From assembly GCF_005845215.1 (NCBI RefSeq), contig NZ_SPHO01000004.1, forward strand, positions 310,001 through 374,000: a stretch of 64,000 nt of DNA, given 5' to 3'. This document shows, in pieces, positions 7,267 to 19,781 of this stretch. The notes beneath the pieces are model-generated. The model was not told the origin of the DNA, did no database searches, and saw only the letters and a program-made list of their open reading frames with translations. How positions within the stretch are numbered: position 1 is the stretch's first letter; each line of letters begins with the position of its first letter. The stretch is from Clostridium sp. 1001271st1 H5 (GTDB lineage: Bacteria; Bacillota; Clostridia; Lachnospirales; Lachnospiraceae). A program made the translations under genes and the position numbers.

Positions 7267-8958
7267 TCAGACAGCCGAAGGGAAGGGGCTGTACCTGCGT
7301 ATGATTTCCTCTGCTGTCTTGATTCCGTCCATGGCCGCTGAGGTGATTCCCCCGGCATAGCCTGCGCCCTCCCCGCAGGGAAAGATTCCCTTTACAGGGC
7401 TTTCCATCTTTTCATCCCTGGGAATGCGGACCGGGGATGAGGTGCGGCTTTCAATGCCGGCTAAGATGGCATCCGGCCGGTTGAACCCCCTAATCATGGT
7501 TCCAAATCCTTCCATGCCTTCCATGAAAGCCCTGGACAATGGTTCCGGGAATAGCTCCCTGAGGTTGGCAAAGGCATATCCGCCCTTAAAGGCCGGATTC
7601 ACATCTCCAAAGTCCCCGGAAACCTGGCCCGCCTTAAAATCCCCGTAGAGCTGTACCGGTATGTTTCCTTTACCCAGGCGGAAGGCAGCCTCCTCCAGAC
7701 GCCTCTGGAACCTGATGCCTGACATGGCATCTCCCGGCATCCCGCGTACCTGCTCCGCCTCACAGCCCTTCTCCCCTCCGGGCCCTGTCTCCATCCGGCT
7801 GAAATCCTCCGGCGTGACAGTGACAATAATGGCACTGTTGGCGTTTTCCCCTGCCCTGTCATGGTAGCTCATGCCGTTGACAGCCAGACGGCCTGTCTCA
7901 GAGGATGCATTGACCACGTAGCCTCCGGGACACATGCAGAAGGAGTAAACGCCCCTTCCGTCCGGAGCCTTCCAGGTGAGCTTGTAGCTGGCAGGACCCA
8001 ATTCCCTGCATTCCTCCATGCCGTACTGGCTCTCATTTATCAGCGTCTGGGGATGCTGCACCCTGAGTCCCACTGCAAATGCCTTTGGCTCCATGGGAAC
8101 GCCCCTGGCCAGCAGGGTTTCAAAGGTATCCCTGGCGCTGTGTCCGATGGCCAGAACCACTGTCTCCGTCTCAATGACCTGGCTGCCGTTGATTACAAGG
8201 GCCTCTATCCGCCTGTTTTCTCCAGCCTCCCTGTCTGTCACGAAATCCGTGACCTGGCTCAGAAAGCGGACCTCTCCTCCCAGGTTTTCAATCTCCCTGC
8301 GTATGGCTTTGACAATGCGGCTTAATACGTCGGTTCCAATGTGGGGCTTATTCACATAAAGGATAGACGGGTCCCCGCCGAACTCTGCCAATATGCGCAG
8401 TACTTCCCGGTTTCTTCCAAAGGTATCCTTTACCAGGGTGTTAAGCTTTCCATCGGAAAATGTCCCTGCCCCGCCCTCCCCGAACTGTACATTGGAGGAC
8501 GGGTCCAGCTGCCCTGTTTCCCAGAAACGGGCCACCCGCTCCGTCCGCGCGTCCACATCCTCTCCCCGTTCCAGAAGAATGGGCCTGTACCCTTTTCTGG
8601 CCAGCATAAGACCGCAGAACAGCCCCGCAGGTCCGGTGCCGATGATAACCGGCCGGCCGGCCATGGGCTCTGTACCCGGCTCAGGAAGGCGGTAAGGCGT
8701 CTCCTGATGGACCGTTACATTACGGTCCTTCAGCCTGCGCACCAGCTTTTCTTCCTTCTGCTGTCCGGCCTGCCTGATTCCTATGTCCACCACATAACTG
8801 TACCGTATATCCGGCTTTTTTCTGGCATCCACAGACTGCTTGATAATGGCAAGCTTCTCTATCTCCCCTGCCGGAACATGCAGCATTCTGGCAGCCTTAT
8901 CCAAAAGGCCTGCCCTGTCGTGTCCCAGGGGCATCTTTAACTGATTAATACGAATCAT
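7267..8958 (-). CDS. NAD(P)/FAD-dependent oxidoreductase (COG2509 type)
   Basis: 563 residues. An N-terminal region of about 90 residues (RINQLKMPLGHDRAGLLDKAA) is typical of this uncharacterised dehydrogenase family. A Rossmann FAD site follows at about 107 (VIIGTGPAGLFCGLMLA). Further segments (VQFGEGGAGTFSDGKLNT, and near the end FPCGEGAGYAGGITSAAMDG) are family-conserved. The substrate is unknown. Its ATG overlaps the stop of the upstream FAD protein by four bases, so both are made from one message. Confidence 0.88.
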   Translation of the reverse strand: MIRINQLKMPLGHDRAGLLDKAARMLHVPAGEIEKLAIIKQSVDARKKPDIRYSYVVDIGIRQAGQQKEEKLVRRLKDRNVTVHQETPYRLPEPGTEPMAGRPVIIGTGPAGLFCGLMLARKGYRPILLERGEDVDARTERVARFWETGQLDPSSNVQFGEGGAGTFSDGKLNTLVKDTFGRNREVLRILAEFGGDPSILYVNKPHIGTDVLSRIVKAIRREIENLGGEVRFLSQVTDFVTDREAGENRRIEALVINGSQVIETETVVLAIGHSARDTFETLLARGVPMEPKAFAVGLRVQHPQTLINESQYGMEECRELGPASYKLTWKAPDGRGVYSFCMCPGGYVVNASSETGRLAVNGMSYHDRAGENANSAIIVTVTPEDFSRMETGPGGEKGCEAEQVRGMPGDAMSGIRFQRRLEEAAFRLGKGNIPVQLYGDFKAGQVSGDFGDVNPAFKGGYAFANLRELFPEPLSRAFMEGMEGFGTMIRGFNRPDAILAGIESRTSSPVRIPRDEKMESPVKGIFPCGEGAGYAGGITSAAMDGIKTAEEIIRRYSPFPSAV

Positions 8959-10289
8959 TTCCTGTTCCTCTTTCCGTTTGCTGCATGTATCCCTGCCGTC
9001 ATACCGCTGGACCAGGCAAACTGCAGGTTGTATCCGCCGCAGATTCCGTCCACATCCAGAAGTTCTCCTGCCAGATACAGATTATCGTGAAGTCTGGATT
9101 CCATGGTGGATGCATCTACCTCCCTGGTATCCACGCCGCCGCAGCACACCTGGGCATTGGCAAAGGGATTCACCGACATGACAATGGCTTCATAGGTCTT
9201 TATCTGTTCCAGAAGCAGTTTCAGCTGTCTGGAAGACAATTCCCCTGCTTTCCGGGAGGATTGAATGCCTGCCAGCTTAATGAGCACCAGAGCCAGTTTC
9301 TTGTTCAGCAGGCCTGTAAACAGTTCCTCCGCCGTCTTGTGGCCCAGAAGGGCTGCCCGCTTTTTAAGCAGCCCAAAAGCCTCGCCGTCATCCCAGGACG
9401 GCATAAAGTCCACCAAAGCAGTGACCTTTTTTCCCTGGTCCAGGGCCCTGGCCGCAAAGCGGCTGACCTGGAATACCGGGATGCCGGACAGGCCGTAGTC
9501 TGTCAGCTGCAGTTCCCCCCTGTCCTGGGCCAGCAGTTCATTGGCCGCCATAAGCTTTACCCTGGCATCCGTACGGATACCCGCCATCTGCCTGTACATA
9601 TTTCCCTGGCACCGCAGCTGCACCAGGGCGGGAAGCGGCTTGATTACCCGGTGCCCCAGCATCTTTGCCAGCTCATATCCGCTTCCGTCCGAGCCGGTGG
9701 ACGGGGCCGCCTTGGAGCCGGCCGCCAGGATGACCGCATCTGCATCCAATACGCCCTGGTCCGTGTACACTTTGTAGCGGACCCTGCCGCCGGCTGGCTG
9801 GTTGGAATCCTCCTCCACCTTTACTGATTTTTTGGCTTTATTTTTGAATTCTTCGCCCACTTTTCCATCTTTATTCCCATCAACCGGCACTATCTTCTCC
9901 ACATTACAAGAAAGCAGCACCACCACGCCCAGGCGCTCCACCTCACAGCGGAGCACGTCCAGCACTGCGGATGCCTGGTCCGAATTGGGATAGATATATC
10001 CGTTCCTGTCCTTTGGCTCTATTCCAAGACCTTTGAAAAATGCCAGGGTCTCGTCCACCCCAAAGCCCCGGATGACCTCCATGGGAAACCCCTCCTGGCC
10101 GCAGCGGTAACAGTCCGCCTCCATCCTAAGGTTGGTCAGGTTGCACCTGCCGTTGCCTGTGGACAGGATTTTCTTTCCCACACGGTCCATGTGTTCCACA
10201 ATAGTCACGTCAGCCCCGCTGCCGGCCGCGCCAATGGCAGCAACCAGTCCTGAGGCCCCGCCTCCTATGATGACGATTCGTCTTCTCAT
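8955..10289 (-). CDS. NAD(P)/FAD-dependent oxidoreductase (BaiN/HI0933-like flavoprotein)
   Basis: 444 residues. The N-terminal dinucleotide site IIGGGASGLVAAIGAA is followed by the family signature KKILSTGNGRCNLTN. The C-terminus has ICGGYNLQFAWSSGMTAG, which closes the FAD pocket. The family includes BaiN, proposed to act in bile-acid dehydroxylation, but most members have no known substrate and there are no bai genes nearby, so I do not assign that role. About residues 160-180 carry a lysine-rich insertion. Coupled by a four-base overlap to the next flavoprotein. Confidence 0.88.
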   Translation of the reverse strand: MRRRIVIIGGGASGLVAAIGAAGSGADVTIVEHMDRVGKKILSTGNGRCNLTNLRMEADCYRCGQEGFPMEVIRGFGVDETLAFFKGLGIEPKDRNGYIYPNSDQASAVLDVLRCEVERLGVVVLLSCNVEKIVPVDGNKDGKVGEEFKNKAKKSVKVEEDSNQPAGGRVRYKVYTDQGVLDADAVILAAGSKAAPSTGSDGSGYELAKMLGHRVIKPLPALVQLRCQGNMYRQMAGIRTDARVKLMAANELLAQDRGELQLTDYGLSGIPVFQVSRFAARALDQGKKVTALVDFMPSWDDGEAFGLLKKRAALLGHKTAEELFTGLLNKKLALVLIKLAGIQSSRKAGELSSRQLKLLLEQIKTYEAIVMSVNPFANAQVCCGGVDTREVDASTMESRLHDNLYLAGELLDVDGICGGYNLQFAWSSGMTAGIHAANGKRNRK

Positions 10290-10527: not shown

Positions 10528-12609
10528 TCAATCCTGAATCCGGGATTTGCTGATTCTGCACGGAATGGCCTTAAAAGCAGGAAAACCGGATACCTCATCC
10601 CTGATTTTCATGCTGTTTACATCATTGATATTGCCCTCTCTCCACTCCTTTGAATGATAGCTGCTTCCGCCCCCCGAAAACACATGGATTGTCCCCGGAT
10701 GCATGGGCGTGATTCTGGCCCGGAACCGCTTTGTACCAAAGGCAGTCTCCACATCCACTTTGCATCCGTCTTCTATACCCATGCGTCCGGCGTCCGAAGG
10801 GTCAATATCTGCTGTTGGATATGGGTCAAGGACTGCCAGCGCCTCTATATTGGGGCCAAAGGAACTGTATCTGACCGGACTTCTGTTACCGCATGTCATG
10901 ACAAACTCAAATCCGTCTTTTAATCCCGCCACCCCGCTTATATCCTTATAAACAGGATATCCCGTATACCCCATATCCTCCAATAGCGTGGACGATATCT
11001 CAAACTTGCCGGAGGGGGTGGGGAATCCCTTCCCGCCGTCGGCCCTGAGTTCACCTGTCTCATATTTCCTGTAGGTCCGCTTCTTTTCAAGTACAATGCC
11101 CTCGGGATGCTCTTTCAGCCGCTTAAAAAGGGCTTCCCTGCCTTTAAAGGCCCGTTCATAGAGCTCTTCCTTATTCTTCGGGAATGCATCCGGCCTGCCC
11201 ATATATTCCGCCAGCTGCTGGTAAATGAACACATCCGCCTTTGCTTCCCCTACAGGCCCGATTATCTGTTCCCTCAGACGTATGCCGCCCGGATATTCGC
11301 AGAATGAATCATTTTCCCACAGCGTGGTGGCGGGCAATACCACATCCGCATACCTTGCATCCTCAGTCATAAAGCGGTCCAGGACCACCATGAAATCCAG
11401 TTTCCTGTATACCTGGCGCCACAGCTCCTGTTCCGGGTAGGAAATGGCAGGTGATGCCGCCCGGATTAAAAGTCCTCTGACCGGATACGGCTCACCGTGA
11501 AGCACTGCATTGGGGAATTCCATGAACTGGCCGCATCCGGTCAGGGCATAGAATACCGGGTATTTATCCGCCCCAACAGGCATGATTTCCTGCTTTGGCG
11601 CCGGTTTTACAGTGGGAATTGCGGACCCGTTAATATAGATGCCGCCCTCCACATCCACCTTGCCTGTTATGGCCCACAGAATCTGGATGGCGCGGTTATT
11701 CTGCACTCCGCTGAGCTGATATTCCAGCCCGGTATATGAAACAAGGCTTATCTTCTCCGTTGAGACAAACAGCCGGGTAAGCTCCTCTATGGTCTGAACC
11801 GGTATTCCGCAGTACTTTGAAAGCCGGCCAACGGACAGGGTATCCAGGTACGCTTTATAAGCTTCAAATCCTCTGGTATAATTCTTTACAAACCCTTCGT
11901 CGTACAGATGTCTCTCCAGTATCAGCTTTGTCATGGCCATTGCAAGGGCCCCGTCGGCTCCTGGGATGATTGGCACCCATATATCAGCCATTTCTCCCAT
12001 CCCTGCCTTGCATGGGTCTATGACAACCAGTTTCGCACCCCGTTTCTTTGCATCCGCAATGGCCCGGTAGGCGGACAGCGGACCGGAATCCGTCTTTGGG
12101 TTTTTACCCCAGCAAAAAATGATTTCACTGTGCCCGATATCTTTTACCAGCATGGCCTCTGTGACGCCATAGGTGGTCAGGGGCGTGAACACGCAGGAGG
12201 AGGTATTGCAGATGGAGCCCGGCCCCATATCGTTGGGCGAGCCGAACACCCGGAACAGACCTGCATTTGCACACATACTGTCTTCCAGCCCGCTCCCGCC
12301 GTAATAGCTGGCCAGTGCCTCAGGCCCATGTTCCCTGATTATATCCAGAAACCCCCTGGCCGCATATGTAAGGGCCTCATCCCATGTGGCGCGGCGGAAG
12401 GTTCCTTCTCCTTTTTCCCCGCACCGAATCAGAGGATGCAGTATCCTTTTATGGCTGTACACAATTTCCGGCGATTTCTTCCCACGGGGACAGACCCGTC
12501 CCCTGGGGGATTGGGAATCCGCCTCCACCTTTACAAGCTTTCCGGATTCCAGGGTTGCCACTATATCACATTTATTGTGGCACATCCCGCATACACCTCT
12601 TTTTTCCAT
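10528..12609 (-). CDS. Molybdopterin-dependent oxidoreductase (DMSO reductase superfamily)
   Basis: 693 residues from the ATG at 12609, which has AGGGG ten bases upstream; the GTG at 12618 lies too near that site. The N-terminus CGMCHNKCDI...GRVCPRGK binds a [4Fe-4S] cluster. Then come the bis-MGD domains (WDEALTYAARGFLDI, FCWGKNPKTDSG) and a C-terminal MGD-binding domain (TCGNRSPVRYSSFGPN). No Tat signal is seen, so it is probably cytoplasmic. The substrate is unknown. It begins 17 bases after the MerB-like selenoprotein and is likely co-transcribed with it; a redox role in the organometal pathway is possible but unproven. Confidence 0.88.
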   Translation of the reverse strand: MEKRGVCGMCHNKCDIVATLESGKLVKVEADSQSPRGRVCPRGKKSPEIVYSHKRILHPLIRCGEKGEGTFRRATWDEALTYAARGFLDIIREHGPEALASYYGGSGLEDSMCANAGLFRVFGSPNDMGPGSICNTSSCVFTPLTTYGVTEAMLVKDIGHSEIIFCWGKNPKTDSGPLSAYRAIADAKKRGAKLVVIDPCKAGMGEMADIWVPIIPGADGALAMAMTKLILERHLYDEGFVKNYTRGFEAYKAYLDTLSVGRLSKYCGIPVQTIEELTRLFVSTEKISLVSYTGLEYQLSGVQNNRAIQILWAITGKVDVEGGIYINGSAIPTVKPAPKQEIMPVGADKYPVFYALTGCGQFMEFPNAVLHGEPYPVRGLLIRAASPAISYPEQELWRQVYRKLDFMVVLDRFMTEDARYADVVLPATTLWENDSFCEYPGGIRLREQIIGPVGEAKADVFIYQQLAEYMGRPDAFPKNKEELYERAFKGREALFKRLKEHPEGIVLEKKRTYRKYETGELRADGGKGFPTPSGKFEISSTLLEDMGYTGYPVYKDISGVAGLKDGFEFVMTCGNRSPVRYSSFGPNIEALAVLDPYPTADIDPSDAGRMGIEDGCKVDVETAFGTKRFRARITPMHPGTIHVFSGGGSSYHSKEWREGNINDVNSMKIRDEVSGFPAFKAIPCRISKSRIQD

Positions 12610-12626: not shown

Positions 12627-13256
12627 TTATACAAGGAACGTCTCCCTTGCTTCCTTTACTGCAAGGCTGATATCTGCTTTGATTACCTTTTCCATATCAA
12701 GCCCCATATCATGTGCATATTCGTCAAACTCGTTCTCCGTACAGAAGAAATTCATGGCGTTTCAGCACGAACCTGCCCAGTTGGTTATCTCCTCCAGACA
12801 GAAGGAGAGCGCATATAAGCCTTCAGGCCGATGTTTTGCGCACTCCCCGTTTTTCATTTCCACATACACATCATTTCCGCATACACAGCAGGATGAATGA
12901 ATCTGCGTATCCTCATGAAACGTAAACGTGGCTCCAATGGCATCTATGGCGCACATGGCCGAGAATTCCCTGCCATCGGCAAGTGTGACGCGGTGCGCAG
13001 TGGGCAGTGCGGATACCGGATAAATGAAGTTGATGTTCCCCTCCTCATCCGCGGAAAAACCATCCCTGGAGTGAAGGACATCCAAAATGTCCTCAAATTC
13101 ATCCTTGCCGGAAAGGCTTATTCCCTTTAGTGCCTCATACCCGTCCTGTTTCATATGAAAGGGCCTCTTATTATCAATTATGAAGTTCATGATGGCAATA
13201 CGTACCTCATTCTGCTTTTCATTAAACTTTGCCTGAACATTCTGTCCCAAATCCAT
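12627..13256 (-). CDS. saoL: MerB-like organometal lyase, selenocysteine-containing
   Basis: Reads as one 209-residue protein if the TGA at 12762-12764 codes for selenocysteine (residue 165). Alkylmercury lyase MerB is about 212 residues and cleaves carbon-mercury bonds with two Cys and one Asp. Here Cys102 and Asp105 in MCAIDAIG match the MerB CxxD pair, and SCUNAMNFF (Cys164-Sec165) falls where MerB has its second catalytic Cys-Cys followed by HFF. About 44 residues continue in frame after the TGA and end at a TAA just before the next gene. Other seen features: HSSCCVCG around 120. I recall this family as SaoL. Confidence 0.87.
12733..12749 (-). promoter_or_regulatory. SECIS-like hairpin in saoL
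   Basis: Twelve bases after the TGA, the message can form a 6-bp stem (TTCTTC with GGAGAA, one G-U pair) with loop TGTAC. Bacterial SECIS elements are short hairpins at this distance from the UGA. Predicted by eye only. Confidence 0.5.
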
Positions 13257-13282
13257 ACATCCTCTCTTGTGCTTGTTTTTTC

Positions 13283-14647
13283 TTAATGTTTATGGTCGCT
13301 CTGTCCGGCCGTTGTCTCTGCCGCTTTCTCAGCCGCTTTCTCAGCCGCCTGCTCCGCCGCCTTTTTATCACGCGCTTCCTGCTCCGCCTTCAGCTGTGCC
13401 TCATGGCCTTCCGCTGCCTTTGCAGCATCCTGTGCAAGCTGCTCGTCCGTGATGTGGTCAATTTCCATTGCCTTTTTCAGCCAGTCCTCGTACTCCATTC
13501 CCAAGGGGAAATTCTTATCCAAATCAATGGACTGCGCGAACACATCAAAGCTTCCCAGATTGGCCTTTTCCACCCACTCCGGCTGGCAGAACTCTTCCAG
13601 CGTGTCAAGGCTTGTCCTCTGTTCCGGGTCAATATTGAATTTGTCATACTGGGCGAAACGGTTTTTGATATTATCCTCGCTGAATTCCCATGTAATGGTG
13701 CGTCCTTCTTTTACGCATTTCATGTACATGGTTCTGAGTCCGACAATCTGCGTGGTGCCAAATGTATCCGCAAAAATCATGGATGCATTGTACGGGTGAA
13801 GATACATATACTGTATGGCAAGCCCGTGAGCCAGTACAAGTCTCTTGGCCAGTTCTTCATGTTCCTTGGCAAAATCCTGCTGCATTGCATATACGCAGCA
13901 CATACCCCATCCTGTTTCCTTATCAGAGGAGATATCAGCTCCCCATCCTGTACACATAATATGTCCGATACCTTCGGACTCTGCCTGTGAGGCATAGGGG
14001 TCTCAGCAGGTAAAGGCAGCCAGCTGACCTGCCTTCATCGCTATCAGTGCATCGGACGAACCCATGGAGATAGCTTCGTATTCCCCGTCTGCCGGGTCCG
14101 GGGACAAGCCCAGTTCCTCCGCCCATGTGTGCCACTCCGGACGGTATTTAACGCTCTCGCCTCCGATGGCAAGCTTCTGTCCCTTAAGCTGCTCCGGGTC
14201 GGTAATATCATTGCTCACAACCAGATACCGGGAACCTCCCAGATGGTTCGCAGCCGCCATATAAAGCGGTGCTCCGTTCTTGGATGCGTCAATGGCGCTG
14301 TCAATTCCCAGATACCCGACATCCATTTCACCTGAAGACATGGCCTCTGCAATCTTGCCTGTCTTCGTAATATTGACCTTCAGTCCCAGGGCGTCATAGA
14401 TTCCCGCTCCCTGCCCCACAAGCGCCGCCACCATGTGGTCGCAGTTGTTATATCCCATCTCCACCACAAAATCCTTATCCGCTGCCGGAATCTCGCCAAG
14501 TATATCCTTATATTTGGCGGCCTCCACAACAGGGTCATAGTCGGTGGAAACGGTCACACTTGTCTGAGTACTGTCCTTGCACCCCGCCAGCGCCGTTACC
14601 AGCACTCCGATTGCAAGGACGCTTGAAAACACTCTTTTCTTTTTCAT
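13283..14647 (-). CDS. ABC transporter substrate-binding lipoprotein, selenocysteine-containing
   Basis: 454 residues when the TGA at 14003-14005 is read as selenocysteine (residue 215). The N-terminus has a lipobox (LVTALAGC), so it is anchored to the outer face of the membrane. The fold resembles NMT1/SsuA-type binding proteins: GYLGIDSAIDASKNGAPLY, then LAIGGESVKY. At the break the frame reads AAFTC-U-DPYASQAE; related proteins have a xDPYA segment at this place. Cys214-Sec215 would make a soft-metal or thiol-reactive ligand pair. The C-terminus is a charged Lys/Ala/Glu coiled coil ending in DHKH. It fits the SaoB or SaoD family name; I cannot tell which. AAGGAG precedes the start. Confidence 0.87.
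13963..13994 (-). promoter_or_regulatory. SECIS-like hairpins after the TGA of the binding protein
   Basis: Two stems follow the TGA at 14003-14005. A near one has TGCCT/AGGCA with loop CAC (13982-13994). A better one lies 23 bases after the TGA: GTCCGA/TCGGAC with the 5-base loop AGGTA (13963-13979). The second has the spacing and G-containing loop expected of bacterial SECIS. By-eye prediction. Confidence 0.5.
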
Positions 14648-14673
14648 TTGTCCGCTCCTTCAATTATAAAGTA

Positions 14674-15519
14674 TTAATCCACTTTCCATTTTAAGAGGAT
14701 TGACTCAATCAGCAGCATCCCCTTGTCAATCACAAAGCCTATCAGTCCTGCAATAATCATGTACGCCATCATGACATCCGTCCTCATACGGCCTTGCGCC
14801 TCTACCATACAGTAACCGAACCCGGCACTCGTCGCGATGAACTCCGCTCATATGACGGACATCCATCCCGCGCTGATAGCCAGTCTTATGCCTGTAATCA
14901 CTCCCGGTAAGGCGCCCGGCATGATTACATCCCTGATTACGTCCCATGTGCTCGCACCCATGCTTCTCACTGCGTGGTAATAATCCCGGCTGATATCCTG
15001 TACTCCTGCAATCGTATTCAGGATAAGGGTAAATACCCCGCTGAAGGCAATCATAAAAATCGTAGGTCCGTCGCCCAGGCCAAACCATACAATGGAAAGG
15101 GGAACCCACGCCATAATCGGCACCTGGCGCAGGGAATTGATGAACGGCGCTATGGCTTTCATCAGTTTGGGGGAATACCCCATCAGCAGGCCTATGGGAA
15201 ATCCAATCAGACAGGCATACATGACGCCTGTCAGCACGCGTCTCATGGTTATTCCTATATTGCGCAGGACATATAAATCCCGAAGGCTGTCGAATACGCT
15301 GTAAACCACACTCTCTAAGGTAGGGAATATGAAAAAGTTATTCGTTATATGAGCGCCGAAAAACCATATGACCGCTATCACTGCCACGGCTGCAGGAGTA
15401 TAATAATTAAATCCTTCTCCCGACAGCTTTTTCCAGTTTCGCCTGTCCTGTCTTCTGACGCCCGTAATCATCCTGTTAACCTGCCTTTCCTGACTGTTAA
15501 GCTTATGCTTTTCCTCCAT
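14674..15519 (-). CDS. saoP: ABC transporter permease, selenocysteine-containing
   Basis: 281 residues when the TGA at 14848-14850 is selenocysteine (residue 224). It is an SsuC/TauC-type inner-membrane permease with about six hydrophobic segments; the EAA-like loop is seen as YYHAVRSMGASTWDVIRDVIMPGALPGVITG. The TGA falls in AGWMSVI-U-AEFIATSAGFGY, a stretch that is strongly conserved in the family (normally xxAE...GLG), so the downstream part is clearly the same protein. A Sec within the last transmembrane region could take part in passing a soft metal. The stop is just before the binding-protein gene. Family name as I recall: SaoP. Confidence 0.87.
14812..14828 (-). promoter_or_regulatory. 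SECIS-like hairpin in saoP
   Basis: Nineteen bases after the TGA, GTGCCG can pair with CGGTTAC (one G-U pair, one bulged T) around a GGTT loop. This is the weakest of the five candidate SECIS hairpins of the locus. Confidence 0.35.
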
Positions 15520-15816
15520 TTTTTCACCTCCTCACTGGTAATTTCTTCATAACGATATGAGTTTACCATGGCTTTTCAGAGATGTATAATAGTTAATCTC
15601 TATTCATTTTCCCCTGTCCATAGAATAAACAAATCCCCCTTTTTCCGCTATTTCCCACGCCATTTTTATAGGTATTTCCATCCTGAAACCAACGGAATTA
15701 TCTATGCCCCCGCCCTCATCCATACTATATTTCTATACGTGTTTCTTTCAGCCGCTTATTATGTTATAATTCCTCCGAATGGAAAAAAATACAAGTAAAA
15801 AAGGGGGAAAGCTGCC
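15520..15816. promoter_or_regulatory. Divergent promoter region of the SAO operons
   Basis: A 297-base gap between the two divergent selenoprotein operons. For the plus operon a TATAAT (15765-15770) stands 46 bases before saoT with a poor -35 near 15742. Towards the minus operon lies an inverted repeat AGAGAT/ATCTCT (15578-15583 and 15596-15601) enclosing a TATTAT-type -10 on the minus strand, a plausible operator. No MerR-type regulator gene is present in or beside the locus. Confidence 0.45.
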
Positions 15817-16074
15817 ATGAACAGACCATGTATTGAATACATTTGCGCATGTGCATGATGCGAGGTTTACATTGGGTTCGTTGAATCCTTAAAGAAAGAA
15901 TATGAAGGAAGGCTGGAAGTCGTCATATATAAAACCGGCAGAGACTTCGATTATATCAAGAAATACGGTGCGGTAACCAAAAGCATGCTGGTCATTAATG
16001 AATCCAGGGCCATAAAGAAATTAAGCCGTGAATCCATAACCGCGGCATTTGAGGAGGCAATACAATCTTGTTAA
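15817..16074 (+). CDS. saoT: Thioredoxin-like selenoprotein SaoT
   Basis: 85 residues read through the TGA at 15856-15858 as selenocysteine 14. It starts at the ATG at 15817 after AAGGGGGAAA. The N-terminus IEYICACAUCEVYIG holds Cys10, Cys12, Sec14 and Cys15, a thioredoxin-type redox or metal-binding site, followed by a small alpha/beta domain (RLEVVIYKTGRDFDYIK, SMLVINESRAIKK) of the redox-active thioredoxin-like small protein type. It would not be called by a standard gene finder because of the early TGA. It is the first gene of the plus operon, and its stop overlaps the start of saoE. Likely role: thiol/selenol handling of the metal in the cytoplasm. Confidence 0.85.
15874..15888 (+). promoter_or_regulatory. 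SECIS-like hairpin in saoT
   Basis: Fifteen bases after the TGA, GGGTTC (15874-15879) pairs with GAATCC (15883-15888), one G-U pair, leaving loop GTT or, if the last pair opens, CGTTG. Position and size fit a bacterial SECIS. Confidence 0.5.
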
Positions 16075-17177
16075 ATGAATTCTTTGCGTTTATCTTCCAT
16101 GTCTGTTACTCCGCACTTAATATGCTGAACAGTTCCTCGGTCTGGATGGTCATAAGCTTTGCCATTGCCGGAGCTTTACATGAATTTCTGAGCCCTGAAA
16201 AGATGAAAAAAAGCTCCATCTGTTCATCCAGGGTTTCCGGCGTATTCTGGGTCACTGTGTTCGGTATGCTGATTCCCATATGCAGCTGCGGAACCATACC
16301 CCTGGGAATCAGCCTGTACTATTCAGGCGCCTATCTGGGCCCCACACTGGCATTCATGACATCCTCCCCCATGATTAATCCCATTGCAGTGATTCTCTGC
16401 TGGGGACTTTTAGGAAAAGAAATTACCATTATATATGTAATCACCGGATTTGTGGCTCCCATGCTCATCGGTATGGTTGCAAACAGATTCGCAGGCAGCG
16501 AGCTTCATATGCCGGGTATCGGTGAACAGACCGGACAGCCCATAATCCTCCTGGAAGAGGAACCAGCCTCTTTTAAGGACAAGCTGCTGTCCGGACTGAA
16601 GTGGTCCTTTACCGAGCTGTCTGTCACCGTATGTAAATATGCGGTAAGCGGAATGCTCATTGCCGGCCTGATTTTCAATATATTCCCCCAGTCAGCCGTG
16701 CAGACCTATCTGGGGAATCCGGGAATCATCTCCCTTTTTGGAATCACGGTGGTGGCCGCCCTCATGTATGTGTGCGCGGTGGGTCATATCCCCTTTATCG
16801 CGGCCCTTGTGGCCAGCGGCGCTGCTCCCGGGGTCGCAATCACATTTTTAATGGCAGGCGCTTCCACTAATATACCGGAGCTGCTTACCATTCACCGGAC
16901 CATTGGAAAACGGGCCATGATTATGTACTTTTTCATGGTGACTGTCATTTCCAATATTGTGGGATACATCACAAACCAGCTGCTTATGCCCGGTTTTAAG
17001 CCTGTTCTGGATTTTGACGCCTCCCAGAAGACAATCCGGGCTGCCAATAAACTGATTTTCACTGCGCCCCTGTGGCTGAAATACCTGTGCAGCTTTGTCC
17101 TGGTTATCTATGCATGTGTGGCGCTGGCGCGAATCATAAAAAAACAGCTTGGCAGCCAGGCTGCTGAAATGGTTTAG
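16068..17177 (+). CDS. saoE: DUF318/COG0701-type permease, metal efflux transporter SaoE
   Basis: 369 residues with about eight to ten membrane segments and the two-repeat layout of the COG0701 (DUF318, ArsP-like) permeases. Repeat one has PICSCGTIPLGISLYYSGA (Cys72 and Cys74) with TSSPMINPIAV; repeat two has CAVGHIPFIAALVASGAAPG with MAGASTNIPELLTI. ArsP relatives export organic arsenicals, so export of a metal product fits. The start is a TTG at 16068 that overlaps saoT, preceded by GAGGAGG; the next ATG would cut into the first helix. A central loop (about 145-175) carries acidic residues. Confidence 0.87.
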   Translation: MLNEFFAFIFHVCYSALNMLNSSSVWMVISFAIAGALHEFLSPEKMKKSSICSSRVSGVFWVTVFGMLIPICSCGTIPLGISLYYSGAYLGPTLAFMTSSPMINPIAVILCWGLLGKEITIIYVITGFVAPMLIGMVANRFAGSELHMPGIGEQTGQPIILLEEEPASFKDKLLSGLKWSFTELSVTVCKYAVSGMLIAGLIFNIFPQSAVQTYLGNPGIISLFGITVVAALMYVCAVGHIPFIAALVASGAAPGVAITFLMAGASTNIPELLTIHRTIGKRAMIMYFFMVTVISNIVGYITNQLLMPGFKPVLDFDASQKTIRAANKLIFTAPLWLKYLCSFVLVIYACVALARIIKKQLGSQAAEMV

Positions 17178-17187
17178 GAGACGAATG

Positions 17188-17715
17188 ATGAGTAAAAAAA
17201 CAAAAAAGCTGACCCCATACAAACGGATTTCCCTGTACACCATCCTACTTTTATCCGTCTGCTTTCTTGCTTTTTCAGCCAGCAAATATCTCCGGAAGCA
17301 GACAGAAGAAACAAATACCGGACGCCGCAGACTGGCCTTTGCCCCTGCTGTGGAGGAGGACAACCAGGCTCTGCTTATCTTTAAAAAGGAGTTTCCCAAC
17401 CGGGAAATTTATCTGGCCTGTGAGGAGGATGTGACGGACGACGGGATACCTGACCTGCTTGTTATTTATAAAGAAGATTCCCTGGTCCGCTTCGTAACTG
17501 CCATTGGCCAGGACAGCGGCGGTTATGTTTATACCGACCCTATCCCTGCGCCCATTGAAAACCAGGGCATACAATTTAAGAACATAGACAATGAAGGCGA
17601 AATGGAATTTATCATCTCCGGTGAAAAAAACGGACAGGCCGGATATGCCATTTACCGCATCATCGACGGACAGCCAAAGGATTTATTCGGCGACGGCATG
17701 GATAACTGCTGTTGA
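17188..17715 (+). CDS. saoC: Membrane-anchored Cys-Cys-COOH protein SaoC
   Basis: 175 residues from the ATG at 17188 with AGGAG seven bases upstream. One N-terminal membrane anchor (about 13-30, ISLYTILLLSVCFLAF), then an exported domain, ending exactly in Asp-Asn-Cys-Cys at the carboxyl terminus. The family is named for this terminal Cys-Cys. Two vicinal cysteines at a free C-terminus could chelate a soft metal or pass it to a transporter. Its TGA is followed at once by the ribosome site of the next gene, so I take this TGA as a real stop. Confidence 0.85.
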   Translation: MSKKTKKLTPYKRISLYTILLLSVCFLAFSASKYLRKQTEETNTGRRRLAFAPAVEEDNQALLIFKKEFPNREIYLACEEDVTDDGIPDLLVIYKEDSLVRFVTAIGQDSGGYVYTDPIPAPIENQGIQFKNIDNEGEMEFIISGEKNGQAGYAIYRIIDGQPKDLFGDGMDNCC

Positions 17716-17728
17716 AAGGAGCATTCAT

Positions 17729-18508
17729 ATGAACCCATCCCTAAAAGCCCTGCTGTGTACAGCAGCCGTCTTCACCGTCTGTTTCCTTGCAATATTCCTT
17801 TTTCCTAAGGATAACACAGGAACAGACCGGGGCCTGCTGCGCGTCGGAGCCGGAGACGATATATCCGGTTATCTGATGGATGAGACTTTAAGACACTGCG
17901 GCAGCAACACGGTCCAGGGAAAAACAGCCGTTGAATCCTTTGAATTCAACGACTGCTGAAACAATACCGCACAATGGGCTTTACGCTCAGAGGAAATTGA
18001 CGTTGCATTTTACTGCAGTCACATGGCATACCATCTGATTGAGGACAAACGGTTCATGATATACGCCCCTGTCATCATGAATTCAGATGTGATGATTTAC
18101 AGCGGCACGGATATGGAACATGTATCCCACATAGGCATCAGCCAGGGCCGCAGGCATCTGTCGAAGATGGTGTCGGAAGCCTATCCGCAGATTACTGAAA
18201 TCTCGGAAATTAGTCCCAGGGTTCTGGGATATTCCCTTGAAACAGGGCAGATTGACGCCGCGGTCATGGATGTCACCAAAGCAGTCCTGGTGCCCGGAGT
18301 AACCATTGCGCCCATATCAGACGAGGACTATATCTCCTATGTACTGGTTGTGCGCAGAGACGTGGCGGACACGGAACCCTTCCTGAAATTTGTGGATGCC
18401 TATAACAAAACAGTCCGGGCTTTAAACCGGACCGGAACATTTTCTGAGGTCATAAATGCTGACGGGATTCTTCCGGATTCCGTCCACATCAAATTCTTGG
18501 GAATTTAA
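17729..18508 (+). CDS. Membrane-anchored substrate-binding-like selenoprotein
   Basis: 259 residues when the TGA at 17957-17959 is read as selenocysteine 77. The ATG at 17729 follows AAAGGAG. One N-terminal hydrophobic segment (about 7-25) anchors it outside; the rest looks like a small periplasmic-binding-type domain (GLLRVGAGDDISGYL, VAFYCSHMAYHLIEDKRF, TGQIDAAVMDVTKAVLV). The frame at the break is FNDC-U-NNTAQW and continues without other stops to a TAA at 18506, which supports recoding. The Cys76-Sec77 pair mirrors the pairs in the other two proteins. It precedes the ATPase gene. Could be SaoD or SaoB; I cannot decide. Confidence 0.83.
17975..17989 (+). promoter_or_regulatory. SECIS-like hairpin in the second binding protein
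   Basis: Fifteen bases after the TGA, TGGGC (17975-17979) pairs with GCTCA (17985-17989) with loop TTTAC; one G-U pair. The spacing equals that in saoT. Confidence 0.5.
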
Positions 18509-18525
18509 AAGAAAGGAAGATTATT

Positions 18526-19371
18526 ATGTCTATCACTGTGCAGGAACTCAGCAAGAGTTTTGAGAGCAAACGCGGCGCCAAAGAAAGGACTGTTGTTCTG
18601 TCAGATATCAGCTTTGAAGTCAGGGACGGGGAATTCGTTTCCCTGTTAGGTCCTTCCGGCTGCGGCAAAACAACCACCCTTACTATTATTGCGGGTTTTC
18701 AGCCGCGGGACAGCGGCAGAATTTTTGTAAATAACCGTGAAGTGACAAAGCCCGGTCCTGACCGTGCCTTTGTATTCCAAAATTATGCCCTCCTTCCATG
18801 GCTGAAGGTGGGTGAAAACATTCTCTATCCCATGAAAAAGAGAAAGATACCAAAGACACAGCGTGAACAGCGCCTGAAGGAGCTTCTTGAAATGGCGCAG
18901 CTCCAGGACTATGCCAACTACTATATCCATGAGATATCCGGCGGAATGAAACAGCGTGTGGCCCTGCTGCGCGCCCTTGCCTGCGACCCTGAGGTCCTGC
19001 TCCTGGACGAGCCCCTGGGGGCAGTGGATTTCCAGATGCGGCAGCTGCTTCAAAAACAGCTGGAGCAGATGCTTCAGGCAAAAAAGACCACGGCCTTAAT
19101 GGTTACCCACGATGTGGACGAGGCAGTCTATCTCAGCGACCGCGTCATCGTCATGTCCAGGGAAAAAGGAAAAATACTGGCCGACATCACCATAGACATC
19201 CCACGCCCCCATGACAGGACCAGCGTAGTCTATCACCATTACATGGATGAGCTCACCCAGGTGCTCAGTTCCGCCCTGAATGGTGATGTGAAGAATTCCG
19301 AGGACGAGGACCTTTTAGACTTTATCCAGAAAAATGAAAAGAAAAAAAAGGAACATCTGGCCACCGCATAG
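18526..19371 (+). CDS. saoA: ABC transporter ATP-binding protein SaoA
   Basis: 281 residues, an SsuB/TauB-type ATPase. Walker A GPSGCGKTT (about 42-50), Q-loop FQNYALLPW, signature ISGGMKQR (about 135-142), Walker B LLLDEP, and H-loop VTHDVDE. A charged C-terminal tail (FIQKNEKKKKEH) extends the domain. It lies on the plus operon, whereas its presumed permease and lipoprotein lie on the divergent minus operon. It powers import by the Sec-containing permease. The ribosome site AAAGGAAG precedes the ATG. Confidence 0.88.
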   Translation: MSITVQELSKSFESKRGAKERTVVLSDISFEVRDGEFVSLLGPSGCGKTTTLTIIAGFQPRDSGRIFVNNREVTKPGPDRAFVFQNYALLPWLKVGENILYPMKKRKIPKTQREQRLKELLEMAQLQDYANYYIHEISGGMKQRVALLRALACDPEVLLLDEPLGAVDFQMRQLLQKQLEQMLQAKKTTALMVTHDVDEAVYLSDRVIVMSREKGKILADITIDIPRPHDRTSVVYHHYMDELTQVLSSALNGDVKNSEDEDLLDFIQKNEKKKKEHLATA

Positions 19372-19382
19372 GCTGGACCTTG

Positions 19383-19781
19383 TCAGCTTGTATAGGATTC
19401 CAGATAGTGGTATACGTCCATCATGGACGGAAACCATATGCCCTCCATCAGCTTTTCCCTCTCCTTTTCCGGAAAATCCGTAATAGGGATATGGGTGTAA
19501 AGACAGATGGTGCTGCGGTCACTGCAGAATACCAGGAGAAAGCCGGACTCCGACACAAGATAGTATTCTTCTGCCGGAGAAACGCTTTCCAGTATTGGCT
19601 TTACCTGTTCCTGGTTCATGGCGGCCCTGTCATCCACATCATTGACAGTCTCCGTTTCAATGACCGTATTGGGAACTGCCTGTTCCTGCCTAACGCTATA
19701 TCGGGTAATCCCGTATGCAACAATCAGACACACAACCGATGTAACTGCAAACAGGGCAAAGCAGTATAATAGCTTCTTCAT
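19383..19781 (-). CDS. Membrane-anchored protein, BofC C-terminal-like
   Basis: 132 residues with an N-terminal hydrophobic anchor (about 4-24) and an external domain with the pattern PAEEYYLVSESGFLLVF...EKLMEGIWFPSMMDVYHYLESYTS. This resembles the C-terminal domain of BofC, a forespore intermembrane protein, but the match is by eye. The start at 19781 follows GAGGAGG. It is convergent with saoA with an 11-base gap and is likely unrelated to it in function. Confidence 0.65.
   Translation of the reverse strand: MKKLLYCFALFAVTSVVCLIVAYGITRYSVRQEQAVPNTVIETETVNDVDDRAAMNQEQVKPILESVSPAEEYYLVSESGFLLVFCSDRSTICLYTHIPITDFPEKEREKLMEGIWFPSMMDVYHYLESYTS

Follow-up and report, generated by a model that had tools for sequence, protein, structure and literature searches.

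A divergent, selenocysteine-rich SAO locus in Clostridium sp. 1001271st1 H5 and the molybdenum oxidoreductase gene beside it

Organization of the locus

The stretch of 64,000 nucleotides (nt) analyzed here (positions 310001 to 374000 of contig C44 in the 6.52-Mb genome of Clostridium sp. 1001271st1 H5, referred to as the window) contains eight genes of the selenocysteine (Sec)-assisted organometallic (SAO) system within 6.8 kb. The genes form two divergent units, saoP-saoX-saoL being oriented leftward and saoT-saoE-saoC-saoB-saoA rightward (Table 1). An excerpt of PMC13188914 describes SAO as an operon with six selenoprotein genes, credits it to Haft and Gwadz (2023, J Bacteriol 205:e0025922), and ranks it among the larger selenoprotein operons, with Sec in the ATP-binding cassette (ABC) permease and the binding proteins. 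Each of the eight window proteins (SaoL, SaoX, SaoP, SaoT, SaoE, SaoC, SaoB, and SaoA) scored above the curated NCBIfam cut-off of its SAO equivalog. A sequence-only reading of this DNA had assigned the genes to the SAO families, and the assignment was right, because all eight proteins pass these curated cut-offs. That the locus is a genuine, divergent, and Sec-rich member of the published SAO system is near certain.

Table 1. Genes and Sec codons of the SAO locus and the adjoining molybdopterin oxidoreductase gene (window coordinates)
Feature	Position	Strand	Description	Score or relatives
saoL	12627..13256	-	MerB-like organometallic lyase, Sec165	201 bits (cut-off, 140)
saoL Sec codon	12762..12764	-	TGA; aligned with MerB Cys159	Sec in 44/44 relatives
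saoX	13283..14647	-	Substrate-binding protein, Sec215	NF040735, 448 bits (cut-off, 300)
saoX Sec codon	14003..14005	-	TGA	n = 73: Sec 6, Cys 67
saoP	14674..15519	-	ABC permease, Sec224	NF040733, 386 bits (cut-off, 295)
saoP Sec codon	14848..14850	-	TGA	n = 76: Sec 69, Cys 7
saoT	15817..16074	+	Thioredoxin-like protein, Sec14	NF040730, 98 bits (cut-off, 65)
saoT Sec codon	15856..15858	+	TGA	n = 82: Sec 36, Cys 20, other 26
saoE	16068..17177	+	ArsP/COG0701-type efflux permease, without Sec; start codon uncertain	NF040736, 549 bits (cut-off, 325); PF03773, 170 bits
saoC	17188..17715	+	Protein ending in Cys-Cys-COOH	NF040734, 175 bits (cut-off, 80); profile ends in Cys-Cys
saoB	17729..18508	+	Second substrate-binding protein, Sec77	246 bits (cut-off, 140)
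saoB Sec codon	17957..17959	+	TGA	n = 71: Sec 38, Cys 33
saoA	18526..19371	+	ABC ATP-binding subunit	NF040729, 422 bits (cut-off, 360)
Molybdopterin oxidoreductase gene	10528..12609	-	PhsA/Fdh-like; 17 nt after saoL, same strand	PF00384, 123 bits

In-frame TGA codons as selenocysteine codons

The saoL, saoX, saoP, saoT, and saoB genes each contain exactly one internal stop codon, which is always TGA, and all five TGA codons claimed by the sequence-only reading (12762, 14003, 14848, 15856, and 17957) were found. Past the TGA, each frame stops 17 or 26 nt short of the gene that follows on its strand, except for saoT, the end of which overlaps saoE. An open frame past a stop codon is not evidence alone, because 74 open reading frames (ORFs) of at least 60 codons in the window are followed by an open frame of at least 40 codons (TAA, 37; TGA, 28; TAG, 9). 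What argues for readthrough beyond chance, as judged from the alignments, is the conservation of the families at the TGA columns.

The relatives used for this comparison were 80 fetched loci, designated by L numbers, each encoding a relative of SaoE and selected from 108 as the most similar to the SaoE of the window. Among them, L075 is the locus of Peptoclostridium litorale DSM 5388 and L090 that of Pelotomaculum propionicicum MGP. The loci were read with TGA as Sec, and each family was then aligned; counts out of 81 loci include the window. Column counts comprise the matches above a score floor that we set ourselves, four short loci also being left out, and are not independent, the relatives including near-duplicates. 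Below the floor, we dropped a saoL remnant lacking the Sec site (L046), a saoX gene truncated at the edge of its contig (L109), a short fragment of saoP whose Sec site is TGA (L121), and, where a locus already has a saoP, weaker permease matches. The TGA columns of SaoL, SaoX, SaoP, and SaoB contained only Sec or Cys in the relatives, as mostly did that of SaoT. Two residues before the Sec of the window protein, at position 12, SaoT contained Cys in 62 and Sec in 20 of the 82 relatives. Conserved sequence extended beyond the Sec/Cys columns in the homologues, in line with the earlier claim that the frames read on with family-conserved sequence. The pattern that the same reading had named as speaking against it, namely homologues with ordinary stop codons and no conservation after them, was not seen, since the homologues had Cys or Sec followed by a conserved tail. 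Among 299 genomes drawn from the family, three of the five SaoX copies scoring above the cut-off, including that of the window, contained one internal TGA.

The nearest relative, L042, encodes a SaoE that is 94% identical to that of the window and retains all five TGA codons. Synonymous and nonsynonymous differences between the two loci numbered 2/2 (SaoL), 49/11 (SaoX), 9/0 (SaoP), 10/6 (SaoT), and 33/26 (SaoB) after the TGA and 40/20, 63/14, 45/11, 1/1, and 15/23, respectively, before it. Thus, nonsynonymous differences exceeded synonymous ones upstream of the TGA of saoB. Five genes with one internal stop apiece could also be read as pseudogenes or sequencing errors. This barely credible explanation was rejected, since the relatives contradict it (the positions correspond to Sec/Cys columns, and L042, L043, and L044 likewise have TGA at all five) and since the genome has the Sec machinery. 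The TGA at positions 17713 to 17715 was considered as a sixth Sec codon, in saoC, and rejected: it is a real stop codon directly after Cys-Cys, because the SaoC profile ends at Cys-Cys before this TGA.

The sequence-only reading had proposed to search the genome for selA, selB, selC, and selD, and all four were found. The selB (364 bits), selA (599 bits), and tRNA-Sec (61.7 bits) genes lie together on contig C7, whereas selD (365 bits) is on contig C18 (L122, C18:71498-72421). SelD is probably itself a selenoprotein, because selD contains one in-frame TGA. The genome is listed with 8.51% contamination. When 17 stretches were compared by their 4-mer content, the samples from C7, C18, and C44 had mean correlations with the others of 0.65 to 0.78, one C2 stretch had 0.54, the SAO stretch (8.9 kb) had 0.59, and six loci of other organisms had 0.34 to 0.58. 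This comparison supports the assignment of C7, C18, and C44 to one organism, and the 4-mers alone leave the SAO stretch, which is inside C44, unsettled.

Relationship of SaoL to the organomercurial lyase MerB

Cys102, Asp105, and Sec165 of SaoL aligned with Cys96, Asp99, and Cys159 of MerB, which are the catalytic residues of that enzyme according to an excerpt of PMC4525700. Conservation of Sec in the relatives with an intact site (Table 1) extended to two loci in which the five other families have the Cys form. The structure model of the read-through SaoL matched MerB over its whole length. SaoL scored above the cut-off of the Pfam MerB family PF03243 (79 bits versus 27) and below those of the MerB models NF009710 (44.5 of 193 bits) and NF033555 (38.5 of 200 bits). 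SaoL is similar to MerB in its predicted fold, in the counterparts of Cys96 and Asp99, and in the chalcogen at the position of Cys159, but differs from it by Sec in place of Cys159, by an extra Cys before this residue, and by an identity of 15 to 17% to the seven crystal entries. We conclude that SaoL is a relative that probably works like MerB, rather than a protein to be classed as MerB. The NCBIfam SaoL match stops one residue before Sec, position 159 of the 159-position profile falling at residue 164. The tail past the end of the profile is conserved in the relatives and completes the predicted MerB fold.

Comparison with other SAO loci and related systems

The locus resembles the SAO system in its eight families scoring above the cut-offs and in having Sec in five of the six Sec-capable families. 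It differs by its two divergent units, the rarer Sec form of SaoX, a SaoC ending in Cys-Cys, the lack of a detected SaoD, and the molybdenum (Mo) oxidoreductase gene after saoL, the last two features going beyond the sequence-only reading. Four of the 81 loci share the divergent order: the window and L043, to which we add L042 and L044, where a gene is split or doubled. The order T-E-C-X-B-P-A-L was the most frequent (22 of 81), and many loci are cut by contig ends. Among the 42 loci containing all six Sec-capable families, window included, 22 loci had four Sec families, 9 had five, 4 had three, another 4 had two, 2 had a single one, and 1 had six, SaoT being scored as a Sec family if Sec was present at position 12 or 14. 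The six-Sec count of L042, with Sec in SaoC, is an artifact caused by misalignment of its saoC, which is spread over two ORFs. SAO is rare: of 391 genomes of the class, four, including that of the window, had SaoE above its cut-off, and these same four had SaoL above its own; among 299 genomes of the family, SaoX exceeded its cut-off in four.

A cluster of SaoD-like proteins was present in 51 of the 81 loci (one member tested, above the NF040732 cut-off). SaoD is thus not universal and was not treated as defining SAO. Four loci (L065, L067, L095, and L113) had only Cys at the SaoX, SaoP, SaoT, and SaoB columns, and their fetched DNA contained no SaoL. Genes of a double-cubane-like cluster were near SAO in 36 of the 81 loci, the genome analyzed here containing an unlinked gene of this type on C11, and a MerR-type regulator was present in 4 loci (one member tested). 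Two saoE genes each were present in L051 and L053 (the latter also with two saoT genes), as if two SAO units adjoined, and L056 to L061 each contained a pair of saoP genes in which TGA occupies the Sec column.

SaoX, SaoP, and SaoA scored on the models of the sulfonate and taurine importers SsuABC and TauABC, but below the cut-offs, and the SAO importer differs from these systems by its conserved Cys/Sec sites and its second binding protein, SaoB. A sequence search of the PDB with SaoB gave nothing better than an E value of 0.52. SaoE is similar to the ArsP and SO_0444 permeases (COG0701) in scoring above the PF03773 cut-off and in its partial match to NF033936, but reached only 168 of 300 bits on the latter model and has an equivalog model of its own.

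Genes and signals around the locus

A small ORF beside saoA (19383-19781, minus strand) had no NCBIfam or Pfam match and, among the 81 loci, clustered only with L042. The gene of an HI0933-like flavoprotein (8955-10289, minus strand), downstream of the Mo oxidoreductase gene, clustered with no flanking gene of the other loci, and a YqfD-like sporulation gene close to the locus scored just below its cut-off. This gene and the Clostridia among the relatives suggest a spore-forming member of the Firmicutes, probably an anaerobe. Another ten ORFs of the window, lying up to about 11 kb away, were housekeeping or unnamed, with no mer or ars gene among them. No inverted repeats were found between the divergent units, promoter and terminator scans gave counts about equal to those of shuffled sequences, and an Rfam scan of 15 kb around the locus gave a single match (17 bits versus a gathering score of 100).

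The adjacent molybdenum oxidoreductase

The Mo oxidoreductase comprises 693 residues, and its gene starts 17 nt after saoL. The protein resembles PhsA and Fdh, but among the 25 of 27 families for which a cut-off was listed, it exceeded none. It has no signal peptide at its start, appearing cytoplasmic, and contains a GSxC motif, the Cys of which we take to be the likely Mo ligand. Mo oxidoreductases of one similarity cluster were found in 15 of the 81 loci, window included. The contig of L042 ends within the start of such a gene, 91% identical over 190 residues. In a midpoint-rooted tree of 34 hand-picked sequences (L165 not included; no support values printed), 10 of the 15 loci, window included, fell in one clade. 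The position of the gene within this clade varies, since it follows saoL in the window, L043, and L110, precedes saoT by about 30 nt in L088, L090, and L109, is farther from saoT in L092, follows saoX in L051 and L120, and is more distant in L053. The tree leaves out L091, in which the gene is a fragment of insufficient length. Against a link with SAO, 4 of the 15 loci (L076, L077, L096, and L115) carry other clades. The clade also includes SAO-unlinked orthologues from SAO genomes (L166 to L171 and L173), as well as L181, a sequence whose genome is SAO negative.

Orthologues scoring at least 500 bits were present in 13 of 50 SAO genomes, beside SAO in 5 and unlinked in 8; in L165 to L171 and L173, the stretch fetched around the Mo enzyme contained no SAO gene. 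None of 387 genomes of the class without SaoE or SaoL above the cut-off had such an orthologue, the best match scoring 407 bits. The 50 SAO genomes were picked non-blind from the 80 loci, the Mo carriers being already known, and 11 of the 14 fetched carriers were among them. Counting the 30 omitted genomes as lacking the gene gives a bound of 13/80 versus 0/387 (Fisher P = 5e-11), a value that ignores kinship, related genomes not being independent, and some SAO genomes are probably outside the class used as the control. The association is weakened by the three other SAO genomes of the class draw, in which the Mo enzyme scored 137 to 240 bits and none reached 500. We read these data as pointing to a moderately strong functional link between this clade of Mo oxidoreductases and SAO, the Mo oxidoreductase being a candidate extra member of the operon.

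Proposed mode of action

For this locus, the analysis shows family membership, conserved Cys/Sec sites, Sec machinery in the genome, and, for SaoL, a predicted MerB fold with its catalytic triad, and the organometal function of SAO is probable, as judged from the families. The scheme that follows is our inference as to the substrate, the reaction, the transport direction, and the sequence of hand-over; in it, the locus likely imports a soft organometal or organometalloid, cleaves its carbon-metal bond, and exports the product. SaoX and SaoB would bind the compound through Cys and Sec ligands, and the SaoP/SaoA ABC transporter would import it, the Sec of the permease serving as a transient ligand. 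SaoL would then break the carbon-metal bond by MerB-type protonolysis, Cys102, Asp105, and Sec165 acting for the MerB triad. SaoT or SaoC may accept the freed ion by thiol/selenol exchange, and SaoE would export it. A further two-electron redox step, acting on either the substrate or the product, may come from the Mo oxidoreductase next to the locus.

Several observations weigh against this proposal. Among the scanned neighbors, no mer or ars gene was found, no genome-wide search for such genes having been made, and neither the biochemistry of SAO nor a tested substrate was found in the searched literature, which was available in part. No match to the SaoD profile (DsrE-like, NF040732) was obtained in the genome, nor was SaoD detected by a search with one protein. 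The SaoL model is least certain at residues 151 to 170, which contain Sec (predicted local distance difference test score, 65 to 66). No saoL gene scored above the floor in the fetched DNA of 23 of the 65 loci that contain the seven other genes, and one of these, L046, in which the other SAO genes are present, has only a remnant (about positions 10800 to 10995) in which the start of the gene is joined to its tail, the middle with the Sec site being gone. Carbon-metal cleavage may therefore not be universal in SAO. Finally, in a prediction of selenocysteine insertion sequence (SECIS) elements, which had been proposed along with the sequence-only reading, our self-made rule detected a SECIS-like hairpin at four of the five Sec sites and none at saoB. 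In the relatives, this rule accepted 173 of 193 Sec forms and 79 of 127 Cys forms of the same columns, yet also 45 to 71% of shuffled Sec- and Cys-form sequences, so that the hairpins lend weak support.

Alternative substrates and pathways

The substrate could be an oxidized organometalloid, such as a methylated or aryl arsenical, subject to sulfonate-type import, reduction by the Mo enzyme, O2-free cleavage of the carbon-arsenic bond by SaoL, and export by SaoE. The resemblance of SaoX to sulfonate-binding proteins (TIGR01728, 62 bits, below the cut-off of 163.5), the membership of SaoE in PF03773 (ArsP_1), and the recurrence of the Mo oxidoreductase clade with SAO are consistent with this specificity. 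In addition, an excerpt of PMC10579292 reports that Clostridium and Tissierella isolates reduce dimethylarsenate, DMAs(V), and ascribes the further demethylation of monomethylarsenite, MMAs(III), to other microbes, such as ArsI-containing bacteria. However, no ars gene was recognized in the 22 most frequent flanking clusters, for which few representatives were scanned, SaoL retains the MerB triad, which is known for mercury, and the Mo enzyme exceeds none of the listed cut-offs, which cover 25 of 27 families. An arsenical of this kind is possible, with perhaps a minor share of the likelihood. A wider anaerobic SAO pathway, in which a cytoplasmic Mo (or tungsten) oxidoreductase would reduce an imported oxidized organometal or organometalloid before cleavage by the MerB-like, obligately Sec-dependent lyase, appears slightly more doubtful.

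The locus might instead serve the metabolism of selenium, in methylated or other organic form, rather than metal handling. In the available part of PMC10418091, sao genes are drawn in clusters that the authors link to methyl-selenium, and double-cubane proteins are linked to selenium. Of the double-cubane-like cluster recurring near SAO, two members were tested, one scoring over and one under the NF040772 cut-off, and a protein similar to selenium/sulfur carriers is present in 7 loci (one member tested, PF11823). The four all-Cys loci described above argue against this role, and the combination of a MerB-type lyase with an ArsP-type exporter suggests a metal or metalloid ion, making selenium metabolism quite improbable.

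Significance

Import, cleavage, and export of a soft organometal or organometalloid remains our preferred reading of the locus, and two new leads emerge from its analysis, both of which may already be in print. None of the examined SaoL proteins has Cys in place of the Sec at the position of MerB Cys159, whereas the other Sec sites of SAO are often Cys, and a specific clade of Mo oxidoreductases tends to travel with SAO. The constant Sec of SaoL and the link to the Mo clade narrow the possible substrate and chemistry. If the substrate is methylmercury or an organoarsenical, the system bears on the detoxification of such compounds by anaerobes. The wider pathway including reduction by the Mo enzyme, if true, would mean that strict anaerobes have an O2-free counterpart of the ArsI or MerB/MerA routes.

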